In this document: positions 5,827-9,898 of the stretch, one piece after another
Numbering within the stretch: position 1 is the stretch's first letter
Layout of the letters: every line of letters starts with the position of its first letter
Assembly (NCBI GenBank): GCA_947476195.1
Contig: CANJPT010000051.1
Span: 1-32,821 of the forward strand
Reading direction: 5' to 3'
DNA from: Lewinellaceae bacterium
GTDB lineage: Bacteria; Bacteroidota; Bacteroidia; Chitinophagales; Saprospiraceae
Length of the DNA stretch: 32,821 bases
Made by a program: the position numbers and the translations under genes
The notes under the pieces: generated by a model
What the model was told of the DNA's origin: nothing
Databases searched by the model: none
What the model saw: the letters and a program-made list of their open reading frames with translations, nothing else

Positions 5827-6456
5827 TTACAATTTTCCCAAAACAACTACCCCCATACTCCGCAATTCTTCCACCAATACTGTTTTAAATGGCTCCAATA
5901 AACACAACTGGTATTGCCGAAGCAAGGAGTCCAATGCCTCCCTGGTCAATAAAAAGCGGTCGGTACCATCAGGCAGGTGAAAGCGACCATGTCCCAATGG
6001 GATTATTTTATCTGCTAACCCAACGTCAGTGGCCACCCGAATGAAAAGCGACCCGCTTGGCCGAAGTACCCGGATCATTTCGCCGAACATCTGCTCAAAA
6101 TGCGGTTCATTTTCGGCGAAATGCAAAACGGCGCTGGAAATGATATGGTTGAAAAAATCATCCGGAAACGGCAAAGACTCCACAGTGGCAACCTGAAAGC
6201 GATCATTTGGAAGGTACGGATAGGTTTGTTTGAGTACTTCCACGGATTCAGGGTTACGATCCGTTCCATATACCTGAAAGCCTTCCTGTACAAACCAATG
6301 CAGGTTACGGCCGCCGCCTGCACCAGCATCCAGGATCACATCCGAAGGAGCGTAACGGCCCTTCATGATCTGGTCTAACAGGTAGACATCCATGTTGCCG
6401 AGGATGGTAGTTAGCGCATTGGTGTGGTGCATAAAATCAGATTGGGTAACGGACAT
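5827..6456 (-). CDS. Class I SAM-dependent methyltransferase (substrate unknown)
   Basis: A 209-residue cytoplasmic methyltransferase of the Methyltransf_11/UbiE-like fold. The SAM-binding motif I reads ILDAGAGGGRNLHWF near residues 41-55, with an acidic motif II (YGTDRNPESV) that would hold the ribose. The post-motif region FPDDFFNHIISSAVLHFAEN and the LRPSGSLFIRVA strand follow in the usual order. The C-terminal segment after about 155 is likely to shape the substrate pocket, but nothing in it names the substrate. It stands alone on the minus strand, convergent with infB, so context does not help. Family assignment is secure; function beyond methyl transfer is unknown. Confidence 0.85.
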   Translation of the reverse strand: MSVTQSDFMHHTNALTTILGNMDVYLLDQIMKGRYAPSDVILDAGAGGGRNLHWFVQEGFQVYGTDRNPESVEVLKQTYPYLPNDRFQVATVESLPFPDDFFNHIISSAVLHFAENEPHFEQMFGEMIRVLRPSGSLFIRVATDVGLADKIIPLGHGRFHLPDGTDRFLLTREALDSLLRQYQLCLLEPFKTVLVEELRSMGVVVLGKL

Positions 6457-7172: not shown

Positions 7173-8114
7173 TCATTCCAAATCTGCTGCTGTATCCAGC
7201 TGCTCCTGCAATGGTTTCTGATTGTAAAAAACAAAAAGTGCAATCAAAAGCACTCCAAAGAACACGGCTGTCAGTGCAAAATATATATTGAAAGGTTTCT
7301 CCGCCGTCAATGCTATACGAACCAAGATGGTAGAAATGACAAAACCTGCATTTCTAAAAATGATGTCGTAGGTGCCAGCATAAATGAAAGACAAGATGAG
7401 CAGGAAGACATCTACAAAGATCATTACGCTAAAAAACTCCTTGTAAAAAACGGTATTAGGATTCGGGAAGTGCCCTCCATGCATACTAACTTCATACAAT
7501 TCAAAGAGCCACCCCGTAAGGCTTGTCACCGAAAGTAAAAGCAGAAGCAGACTCAACACCACTGCTGCAGTCTTCTTGATTCGAATGAACTGATCGCGTC
7601 GGGAGGATGGTTTTAATTGTGGCTTTTGGGTTTTCGCAAATAACCGGTAGTATAAAGTAGTCAGGAAAAAAAGGATCAAAGCCCCGGCCAGGTCCAAACC
7701 GATGGACTTTAAAAAATCAAACGTGTAGATCTCAGACCTGTCCAGATCATAATCCGCAATATCATGGAAGAAACTCCGAATGGTGATCAGGGTAATGATC
7801 TCATATTGCTTACCGATAAAATTGGTGATACTCTTGGGCAAGATCACCACCAGCATCAGTACCTCGTAGAACAGAATGATACTGAATGGCGTATAAATGG
7901 CCTTCAGATAATTGGCTTGAAGTTCAAGCACCTGCATGAGTCCCCAAAAATCGTGTTTGACCAGAAAAATCAGCAGAAGGTGCAGTATAAAACCAAGCAA
8001 TGCAGAACCAATGATCAACCTTTCGACCCGCAAGATATTTTGTTCCTTGAACAATATATCATACCAGCCCGCCAGCGGAATACGAATTTGTGACAACCAG
8101 CTTCCTTTTCCCAT
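7173..8114 (-). CDS. Unrecognised multi-pass membrane protein, third gene of the rhodopsin operon
   Basis: A 313-residue integral membrane protein starting 10 bases after the blh stop, so almost certainly co-transcribed with it. I do not recognise the family. Probable membrane segments lie near residues 34-52, 72-93, 135-158, 183-205, 225-247, 254-271 and 274-297. A soluble loop between the second and third carries KQYEIITLITIRSFFHDIAD (103-122), a mixed charged/aromatic helix that could be a re-entrant or membrane-surface helix. A basic loop (about 160-182, PSSRRDQFIRIKK) probably faces the cytoplasm. The C-terminus is acidic. No catalytic motif, heme ligand pattern or channel signature stands out. 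Possible roles are handling of retinal or carotenoid, rhodopsin assembly, or coupling of light to another process; all are inferred from position only. Confidence 0.75.
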   Translation of the reverse strand: MGKGSWLSQIRIPLAGWYDILFKEQNILRVERLIIGSALLGFILHLLLIFLVKHDFWGLMQVLELQANYLKAIYTPFSIILFYEVLMLVVILPKSITNFIGKQYEIITLITIRSFFHDIADYDLDRSEIYTFDFLKSIGLDLAGALILFFLTTLYYRLFAKTQKPQLKPSSRRDQFIRIKKTAAVVLSLLLLLLSVTSLTGWLFELYEVSMHGGHFPNPNTVFYKEFFSVMIFVDVFLLILSFIYAGTYDIIFRNAGFVISTILVRIALTAEKPFNIYFALTAVFFGVLLIALFVFYNQKPLQEQLDTAADLE

Positions 8115-8124
8115 TAGAATTCGT

Positions 8125-9039
8125 TTATTTATAGCGTTCCTCTACCAAAATAATATGGGGCAAAGTCACACAGGCAATTAAAATAAGAAAAAGACTCAGC
8201 AATGATGCCTCCGGAAACAGAATAGATTGGCCAAAAGCCAAGCCGAGCAGCCCAATAATAGCCAGAAAGGTATATGGGGCAGCCTGATAGTAATAATTTA
8301 TTATTGTAAAATCTGGCCATTGGTGGCGAAAAAAAGATAGCTGGTCAAGCAATGAACTCAAGGAGTGCCAAAGGGTAAAATAAAGGGTAAAACCTACCAG
8401 AAGTGGTGTAAAATAAAACATAACAGATAAAGCAGCCAGCTTTAACACTTCTGAAAGGAGTAAAGGTCGGTCTATTTGACCTGTCAACCGTAATCCGAAA
8501 AGTATCACAACATTTAGCAATAATATCAGCCATTGAATATTGGCCATGATCGTTTCTGACCAGACTGGGAAGTCTCCAATCATTTGCCGCACAATAGGAT
8601 AACCTTCCTTCCAATGCCAGAGTACTGCACCTCCTATGGTAAAAGCACCAAATGCTACATTTAAACCCGACTTAAACCCGGCGGAAAGCGGCAAAGATTG
8701 CCAATTTGATTGGCCAAAGTGATAGGCTGAAATAAGCAAAAAAGAGACCAATGCAATTGTTGGGAATAACAACCAAACTGCCATGTAGCCTAAGACAGCA
8801 ATCATATAAAAGAGGAAAAAACGAAAGACTTGCTTTCGGCTTAATTTAGGACCATATAGGCGCCGAAATAGCAAAAAATCAGTAGCGCCATGTGGAAGTC
8901 CAATGAGCAACACTAATCCAACTAATAATGGATACTGTATTTGTTGCAATAGGTCAGACCAAAACAAACCAACTAACCCAAACGAAATTGTCACCAGCAC
9001 AATGGTTGGGAAAATATTTCTGTTGATAAAATCCACCAT
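8125..9039 (-). CDS. blh: Brp/Blh-family beta-carotene 15,15'-dioxygenase
   Basis: Blh cleaves beta-carotene into two all-trans retinal molecules, supplying the rhodopsin chromophore; it is an iron-dependent integral membrane enzyme. The 304-residue product is strongly hydrophobic and carries the four family histidines in context: LPHGATD (His50), SAYHFGQSNW (His107), LWHSL (His225) and LPHIILVEERY (His295). I chose the ATG at 9039; the longer frame begins with TTG at 9066, which is rare in this phylum and adds only nine residues. It follows the rhodopsin gene with a terminator-like hairpin between them, and the next membrane-protein gene begins 10 bases after its stop. The rhodopsin-blh pairing is a well-known arrangement. 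Confidence 0.93.
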   Translation of the reverse strand: MVDFINRNIFPTIVLVTISFGLVGLFWSDLLQQIQYPLLVGLVLLIGLPHGATDFLLFRRLYGPKLSRKQVFRFFLFYMIAVLGYMAVWLLFPTIALVSFLLISAYHFGQSNWQSLPLSAGFKSGLNVAFGAFTIGGAVLWHWKEGYPIVRQMIGDFPVWSETIMANIQWLILLLNVVILFGLRLTGQIDRPLLLSEVLKLAALSVMFYFTPLLVGFTLYFTLWHSLSSLLDQLSFFRHQWPDFTIINYYYQAAPYTFLAIIGLLGLAFGQSILFPEASLLSLFLILIACVTLPHIILVEERYK

Positions 9040-9093
9040 AACATACCATAATTGCGGTAAAGACAATATTACTTCCTTACTTCTGAAAGAGAG

Positions 9094-9133
9094 AAAAAAC
9101 GGGGCTAATAGTAATCAAATCACTATTAGCCCC
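9094..9133 (-). terminator. Intrinsic terminator between rhodopsin and blh
   Basis: GGGGCTAATAGT (9101-9112) pairs perfectly with ACTATTAGCCCC (9122-9133), with a 9-base loop. Read on the minus strand the stem is followed by GTTTTTT (9100-9094). It starts 24 bases after the rhodopsin stop. Partial read-through would give much rhodopsin mRNA and less blh mRNA. Confidence 0.8.
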
Positions 9134-9157: not shown

Positions 9158-9898
9158 CTATGCGTTACTACGCGAAGAGCTTACTGCAAGGCTGTAAATA
9201 ACCAAGCCGAAGCCAATCTTGTTTACTGCATCACCGATGTTGTAAATAAGATCCATGTTGCGCACATCAATTACACCACGCAACCAGCCATCTGTCTCAA
9301 TGGCCATATAGCCAATCGGATAAATTGCCCAACCAACTAAAACGAACCAGGATAGAGCTTTGAATGCGGCCTGCAATTTTGGATCGTTAGAATTGCCTGC
9401 TAATTTGCGAGCAGAACCCAACCACACCTCATACACGATACCAGCATAACCCACTGTGGAGATAATACCCCAGATCACACTGCTGGAACGGAAGGCTGTT
9501 TCTCCAAGATAACCTGCAACGAGCATCAGTAAAGAATACCCTATCATTTTCCAAAGCAGTTCAATTTTAGCACCAAAAGCTTTGAGAATAAGGTAAAACT
9601 CTACGCACATAAGTGGAACCGTCAGGATCCAGTCAATGTAGCGGAATTGGGTAGGCGATTGACCTGTAGTCAACCACACATCACGCATGTAGAAGTAGTG
9701 AACAGAAGCAATCATGGTGATCAAACCGGCAATAAGTAAAGAGGTCTTCCATTTGCCTTCTACTTGCGAACGCTCGAAGAAGAAAAATACAGATGCCGCA
9801 AACATGGCCATATAGCCAATAAAGAATGTAAATCCAACATAATCGTTGGCTGCAAGGCCAGTGAATAAAAGCACCGGCTGAGTAAAAAAGGAATGCAT
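9158..9898 (-). CDS. Light-driven proton-pump rhodopsin (proteorhodopsin/xanthorhodopsin-like), green type
   Basis: A seven-helix retinal protein of 246 residues that pumps protons out of the cell. Helix C reads FRYIDWILTVPLMCVEFYL and carries Arg86, the counterion Asp89, Thr93 and the proton donor Glu100, i.e. the DTE outward-pump motif. His67 is the counterion partner known from proteorhodopsin. Retinal binds Lys227 in helix G (YNIGDAVNKIGFG), with Asp223 as second counterion. Met97 is at the position equivalent to proteorhodopsin 105, where Met or Leu gives green absorption. Helix E has Gly144 in VIWGIISTVG where bacteriorhodopsin has Trp138 and proteorhodopsin Phe; this glycine forms the carotenoid-binding opening in xanthorhodopsin. 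The start at 9898 gives the normal N-terminus; the longer frame from 9967 adds 23 residues that overlap the likely promoter. It is first in an operon with blh. Confidence 0.96.
   Translation of the reverse strand: MHSFFTQPVLLFTGLAANDYVGFTFFIGYMAMFAASVFFFFERSQVEGKWKTSLLIAGLITMIASVHYFYMRDVWLTTGQSPTQFRYIDWILTVPLMCVEFYLILKAFGAKIELLWKMIGYSLLMLVAGYLGETAFRSSSVIWGIISTVGYAGIVYEVWLGSARKLAGNSNDPKLQAAFKALSWFVLVGWAIYPIGYMAIETDGWLRGVIDVRNMDLIYNIGDAVNKIGFGLVIYSLAVSSSRSNA

Follow-up and report, generated by a model that had tools for sequence, protein, structure and literature searches.

Does the rhodopsin encoded by this Lewinellaceae bacterium capture light with retinal alone, or does it also hold a carotenoid that could act as an antenna? 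In the window, by which we mean the whole 32,821-nucleotide stretch analyzed here, which is contig 51 of the genome assembly, a rhodopsin gene lies at 9158..9898 on the minus strand. An ungapped alignment of helix E had led to the original prediction that residue 144, a glycine, occupies the position of Trp138 in bacteriorhodopsin (BR), and that the pump may therefore use a carotenoid antenna as xanthorhodopsin (XR) and Gloeobacter rhodopsin (GR) do; it named no strand for the gene.

The gene is an intact reading frame of 246 codons, and a profile search with PF01036 identifies it as a rhodopsin (147 bits, E 6.9e-43); it is the sole match to this family in the 4.76 Mb assembly (224 contigs, 97.1% complete). 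Alignment places Asp89, Thr93 and Glu100, together with Met97 at the spectral-tuning position, in the helix C stretch encoded at 9599..9634 (minus strand), and the retinal-binding Lys227 at 9218..9220 (minus strand). His67 and Asp223 are also present, and from this set of residues the protein would be expected to pump protons outward. The pump is probably green-absorbing, as methionine at the tuning position presumably indicates in proteorhodopsins. The closest named relatives among the best 80 of 518 stretches are metagenome-assembled genomes of Saprospirales/Saprospiraceae, one of which (L002) encodes a 97% identical protein. With a dN/dS of 0.02–0.05 against three relatives, at a dS near saturation, the gene is under strong purifying selection.

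Directly downstream of the rhodopsin gene lies blh (8125..9066, minus strand; start codon uncertain), which encodes a retinal-producing member of the beta-carotene 15,15’-dioxygenase family (PF15461, E 8.1e-49; TIGR03753, 171 bits against a cut-off of 95). Among the best 80 of 518 relatives, blh is directly downstream on the same strand in 57, differently arranged in 7, and missing from the stretch examined in 16. The two genes are separated by a terminator-like hairpin at 9101..9133 (minus strand), a 15-pair stem followed by a T-run (-23.2 kcal/mol, z -4.7), which may keep blh expression below that of the rhodopsin. As a conserved feature the hairpin was rejected, a perfect stem with a T tail being found in only 4 of the 26 loci checked, and no RNA family in the window reached its gathering score.

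The descent of the rhodopsin is distinct from that of the known antenna-bearing pumps. In a maximum likelihood tree of 48 rows, drawn with a midpoint root, it falls within a 36-row side that also holds the three proteorhodopsin references (support 97/91), most forks inside this side being open, while XR, GR and Kin4B8 stand on the other branch (90/95) together with NTQ and NDQ pumps of the Saprospiraceae family. Sequence identity follows the same division, with 60% to PDB chain 9jov, 47% to green proteorhodopsin (GPR), 44% to the blue proteorhodopsin 4jq6, and 29–32% to XR, Kin4B8 and GR. Because of this placement and these identities, the protein is a fenestrated proteorhodopsin and not a xanthorhodopsin by descent, a possibility that the tree contradicts; what it shares with xanthorhodopsin is the site, not close ancestry.

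That site begins with Gly144, whose GGT codon lies at 9467..9469 (minus strand). A MAFFT alignment of the reference chains and 80 relatives contains no gap within helix E, which bears out the equivalence of Gly144 and BR Trp138. XR Gly156 and GR Gly178 share the column, and classic proteorhodopsin has phenylalanine (GPR 8cqc, Phe153), both as predicted; the column also contains Kin4B8 Gly153, 9jov Gly142 and 4jq6 Trp134. The BR and XR reference sequences match PDB chains over their full length. Glycine is present at position 144 in 80/80 relatives, which are 56–97% identical and were selected by similarity as the best 80 of 518 stretches, and it is encoded by four different codons (GGT 48, GGA 16, GGC 14, GGG 2). 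Given this conservation, the variety of codons, and the strong purifying selection on the gene, the glycine is not there by chance.

In a second survey, of 398 genomes from the same family, a PF01036 match was found in 100 and was over the cut-off in 98. We read 106 matches, omitting the window’s own, four with in-frame stops, and three below the cut-off; at least 13 contigs (including L009/G147) have equal lengths in this survey and the set of 80 relatives, and the two overlap and are not independent. Among these matches, the pumps with the Asp-Thr-Glu (DTE) motif have glycine at the fenestration in 86 of 87 readable cases, with one alanine and two further sequences that end before the site. 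Glycine is likewise present in the Na+- and Cl--type pumps of the family (NDQ 4/4, NTQ 6/6), in all three proteins with the DTK motif, and in one fragment, and the three DSS proteins all have tyrosine. The fenestration glycine is thus constrained, yet it is the rule in this branch, and because it is nearly universal in the clade it does not single out the window’s pump. The trait is already known and usual in Bacteroidota proteorhodopsins; published work reports that, within one subtree, every Bacteroidota proteorhodopsin has the glycine.

Several other rhodopsins in the survey depart from the common pattern. One protein (L163, genome G094, gene at 358–1089) is the sole DTE pump read with alanine at the fenestration, preceded by methionine rather than tryptophan, and is a natural variant that bears on the size limit of the opening. 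A separate branch of the family (L208, L209 and L210) has Asp-Thr-Lys in place of Asp-Thr-Glu and serine at the His67 column and keeps the fenestration glycine. The distant Asp-Ser-Ser rhodopsins (L141, L113 and L139), with their tyrosine, are alone among the surveyed motif groups in having a bulky residue at this position. Several genomes of genus g7 have 3 to 5 rhodopsin matches; in one genome (G371), two of the five matches adjoin each other and may be fragments of a single disrupted copy.

How much of the remaining pocket is present? According to PMC12308411, the primary criterion for a carotenoid site is the glycine and the second is a conserved tyrosine (XR Tyr207, Kin4B8 Tyr204) shared by all known carotenoid binders; polar residues at Kin4B8 positions 208/209 are given as a likely mark of the binders of 3-hydroxy carotenoids (S-Y in Kin4B8, T-D in KR1, T-E in EinA29G6, with M-A in XR and M-L in GR). 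The helix F tyrosine is Tyr197 (9308..9310, minus strand; BR Trp189), which is followed by Met198 to give the same Tyr-Met pair as KR1 and XR. It is weak and non-discriminating evidence, because GPR and 4jq6, both without the opening, share the tyrosine. The polar positions align with Glu201-Thr202 (9293..9298, minus strand), in a register made uncertain by an adjoining one-residue insertion; if the insertion is placed otherwise, the counterparts become Thr202 and Asp203, so that the pair is polar in both registers. In most fenestrated relatives the polar pair is missing, proline occupying position 201 in 56 and glycine position 202 in 62 of the best 80 of 518. The insertion forms part of an Ile-Glu-Thr-Asp-Gly sequence (9287–9301, minus strand) where helix F ends, close to the position presumed for the carotenoid ring. 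This sequence is a lineage trait, found in 18 of those 80 relatives and, by genus, in 11 of the 12 rhodopsin carriers of the window’s own genus (the window included) and three members of another.

On helix E, Ser147-Thr148 (9455..9460, minus strand) corresponds to GR Ser181/Thr182 and, for the threonine, to Kin4B8 Thr157, and is invariant in 80/80 relatives (best 80 of 518). Mutations of GR Thr179, Thr182, Phe185, Pro226 and Ile227 are reported to affect carotenoid binding and G178W to abolish it (PMC9151804), as a bulkier residue does in Kin4B8 (PMC12308411). In the window rhodopsin those five GR positions read Ile145, Thr148, Tyr151, Pro194 and Ile195, and the Kin4B8 ring-B partners Asn188 and Tyr191 are replaced by Ala181 and Trp184. 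Tyr151 is the only residue in the compared helix E and F columns that is bulkier than in the XR-type binders, which have phenylalanine, and 9jov likewise has tyrosine. Carotenoid binding by the window rhodopsin is likely. Gly153 was considered as a second opening and rejected, as simple helical geometry would turn it away from Gly144; the position is glycine in 25 and tyrosine in 50 of the best 80 of 518 relatives.

Among solved structures, the nearest chains are those of PDB entries 9jov and 9jou (“Proteorhodopsin”), which share the glycine but differ in having Gly rather than Thr at 148 and Trp rather than Gly at 153; we take them to come from the 2025 work on marine Bacteroidota. The nearest characterized case known to us is KR1, a flavobacterial proteorhodopsin from Dokdonia eikasta (BAN14807). 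It is likewise a proton pump of the Bacteroidota proteorhodopsin family with Tyr-Met on helix F and a polar pocket floor, and is reported to bind the 3-hydroxy xanthophylls lutein and zeaxanthin at a site said to be similar to that of Kin4B8 (PMC12308411). As given in a table row of that source, the KR1 pocket reads Y-M-T-D, with Thr-Asp at the floor, whereas the window rhodopsin has Glu-Thr and the nearby insertion. Kin4B8 (7ytb, 8i2z) and Salinibacter xanthorhodopsin (3ddl) share the glycine, Thr148 and Tyr197 columns but lie on the opposite side of the rhodopsin tree at about 30% identity, and the carotenoid used by XR is a keto carotenoid (PMC13093654, PMC12308411). GPR (8cqc) resembles the window rhodopsin in its Asp-Thr-Glu motif, its side of the tree, its 47% identity and its tyrosine at 197, but differs in having phenylalanine at the fenestration and glycine in place of Ser147.

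The genome has candidate genes for making a suitable ligand. A crtI gene (NF058655, 757 bits, cut-off 640) lies with crtB on contig C24, a crtD gene (NF042421, 556 bits, cut-off 500) lies with cruF and a CrtA-like gene on C1, and the lycopene cyclase gene crtY is on C109. Of the carotenoid genes found, crtI and crtD alone pass an NCBIfam equivalog cut-off; crtB (PF00494), crtY (PF05834) and cruF (PF04240) are above their Pfam cut-offs and below the NCBIfam equivalog cut-offs, and the CrtA-like gene does not reach its NCBIfam cut-off. A 168-residue hydroxylase on C92 was identified with a protein query of the genome and is 38% identical (E 1.7e-25) to WP_008108032, which is annotated as a “sterol desaturase family protein” and adjoins crtB in a crt cluster on a Pantoea plasmid. 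We call it CrtZ-like because of this identity to a crt-cluster hydroxylase and its histidine-rich motifs; it matched no NCBIfam model. The absence of CrtZ had been considered, since PF04116 gave eight matches that were all longer hydroxylases and, by eye, unlike CrtZ, and was rejected once the protein query found the gene; the PF04116 result reflects limited sensitivity, because even a control hydroxylase, at 35 bits, barely exceeds the cut-off of 31. Cytochrome P450 was also rejected as an alternative hydroxylase, with no match in the genome, and no CrtW-like ketolase was recognized among the genome’s five FA_desaturase matches, one of which matched no NCBIfam model.

In Nonlabens spongiae, enzymes of the same kinds are reported to produce myxol, and zeaxanthin is a second pigment (PMC11855829); the gene set found here fits a 3-hydroxylated carotenoid of the myxol or zeaxanthin type. 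That study reports a single carotenoid cluster, whereas here the genes are on four contigs (C24, C109, C1 and C92; L083, L092, L103 and L106), none of them the rhodopsin’s. CrtZ is present in 331 of the 398 family genomes, comprising 94 of 100 with a rhodopsin and 237 of 298 without one (Fisher p 6e-4, kinship ignored). As a telling partner of the rhodopsin it was rejected, being too common in genomes that have no rhodopsin; its presence permits the carotenoid idea and does not prove it.

We consider it probable, judging from the residues and genes described above, that the locus encodes a proton-pumping proteorhodopsin with a 3-hydroxylated carotenoid at the Gly144 opening, where the carotenoid would act as an antenna, as an aid to the photocycle or stability, or as both. 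Retinal would be supplied by the adjacent blh, and its isomerization by light would drive outward proton transport. With glycine at position 144, the protein would be open between helices E and F beside the retinal ring. A carotenoid of the cell's own making (myxol or zeaxanthin) would most likely lie across these two helices and insert its ring there, where Tyr197 and the polar residues Glu201 and Thr202 would hold it. The bound molecule would then serve as an auxiliary pigment, transferring energy to retinal, making the pump faster and more stable, or doing both. The sequence supports a carotenoid site, with Gly144, Ser147, Thr148, the polar Glu201/Thr202 and candidate genes for hydroxylated carotenoids, but the glycine does not by itself imply an antenna. 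In the sodium pump DDR2, which also has this glycine, salinixanthin binds and raises thermal stability, but no energy transfer was detected (PMC10026069), so that an antenna cannot be inferred from the glycine alone.

For energy transfer from carotenoid to retinal, taken by itself, we judge the case to be about evenly balanced. A carotenoid might instead bind and speed the photocycle or stabilize the protein with little or no transfer, and this we regard as a real possibility, a little short of an even one. The title of a 2025 Nature Microbiology study of marine Bacteroidota by Fujiwara et al. reportedly describes the bound carotenoid as accelerating the photocycle, which favors such a role. 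The behavior of DDR2 points the same way, as does the stability of GR, which is improved by the bound carotenoid and by G178W alike (PMC9151804), and Kin4B8 is reported to bind salinixanthin without transfer (PMC13093654). However, energy transfer is stated for the complex of astaxanthin with KR1, itself a Bacteroidota proteorhodopsin, and reaches up to about 50% in Kin4B8 (PMC12308411).

Alternatively, the glycine may simply have been inherited in this branch, the site being empty or filled with lipid and retinal being the sole pigment, which we think rather unlikely. Its near universality regardless of pump type would fit, as the glycine is common to XR-type references, Na+/Cl--type pumps of the family, and Bacteroidota proteorhodopsins. 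Yet the invariance of Gly144, Ser147 and Thr148 in 80/80 relatives (best 80 of 518) suggests constraint, the genome carries candidate genes for hydroxylated carotenoids, and the site can evidently close, with Phe in GPR and Trp in 4jq6. It is very improbable that the protein is a true xanthorhodopsin-type pump using a 4-keto carotenoid: although it shares both the fenestration glycine and the Tyr-Met pair (197–198) with XR, it groups with the proteorhodopsins (97/91), is 29–32% identical to XR, Kin4B8 and GR as against 60% to 9jov, has a polar rather than a hydrophobic pocket floor, and lacks a recognized CrtW-like ketolase among the five FA_desaturase matches.

These comparisons extend an established fenestration idea to Saprospiraceae-like genomes, in which the glycine is the normal state of the proteorhodopsins, and the same genome pairs a fenestrated proteorhodopsin with a myxol/zeaxanthin-type gene set. 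If the carotenoid is an antenna, these bacteria would use blue-green light beyond the absorption of retinal.

The less expected lead, and the one most worth following, is a membrane protein without a known family, encoded next in the locus. This undescribed 313-residue protein (7173..8114, minus strand) starts 10 bases downstream of blh. A simple hydropathy count finds seven hydrophobic stretches, and the protein probably has seven helices. Its conserved features include the motifs AxYTPFS and KQxEI and the residues Glu31, His45, Arg113, Asp118, Asp141, Lys180, Trp202, Asp235, Arg254 and Asn255. Searches gave weak Pfam matches only (the best to ActD, E 0.007, in 2/9 members) and no NCBIfam or PDB match, and no mention of a counterpart was found in the portions of the literature searched. 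One homologue, 28% identical, is on a Hymenobacter plasmid, with no rhodopsin annotated within the 16.7 kb seen.

Within the family, the 313-residue protein is strongly co-inherited with rhodopsin. At E≤1e-10 it is found in 63 of 398 genomes, and in 46 of these a rhodopsin accompanies it (odds ratio 15, p 3e-19, kinship ignored). At E≤1e-36, a threshold of ortholog-level similarity picked after the list was seen, it is found in 48 of 398 genomes, and 44 of these are among the 98 that carry a rhodopsin (odds ratio 60, p 2e-26, kinship ignored); only 2 of the 15 genomes with weaker matches, between the two thresholds, have one. At the stricter threshold the protein occurs in 23 genera, all among the 43 rhodopsin-bearing genera of 112 (hypergeometric p 2e-12), and in the window’s own genus it is present in 6 of 12 rhodopsin carriers versus 2 of 19 non-carriers (p 0.03). 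A neighboring methyltransferase (5827–6456), used as a control at E≤1e-30, shows the background level, with 12 of 49 genomes having rhodopsin (odds ratio 0.99, p 1). The link does not look strict, as no match to the protein at E≤1e-36 is found in 54 of the 98 genomes that carry a rhodopsin.

We tentatively suggest that the 313-residue protein may be a dedicated third part of the light system and a partner of the fenestrated proteorhodopsin, possibly one that delivers retinal or carotenoid, assists assembly, or uses the proton gradient. If true, this would add a new component to a system for which rhodopsin and retinal synthesis are usually considered sufficient. The gene is usually apart from the rhodopsin gene, the two having been seen together in two loci (L009 and L022) of the sets of 80 and 106, which overlap and consist mostly of short stretches. 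By coordinates it is 3–4 kb from the rhodopsin gene in genomes G147 (on a contig equal in length to that of L009) and G025, and in L022 it adjoins a Blh gene.
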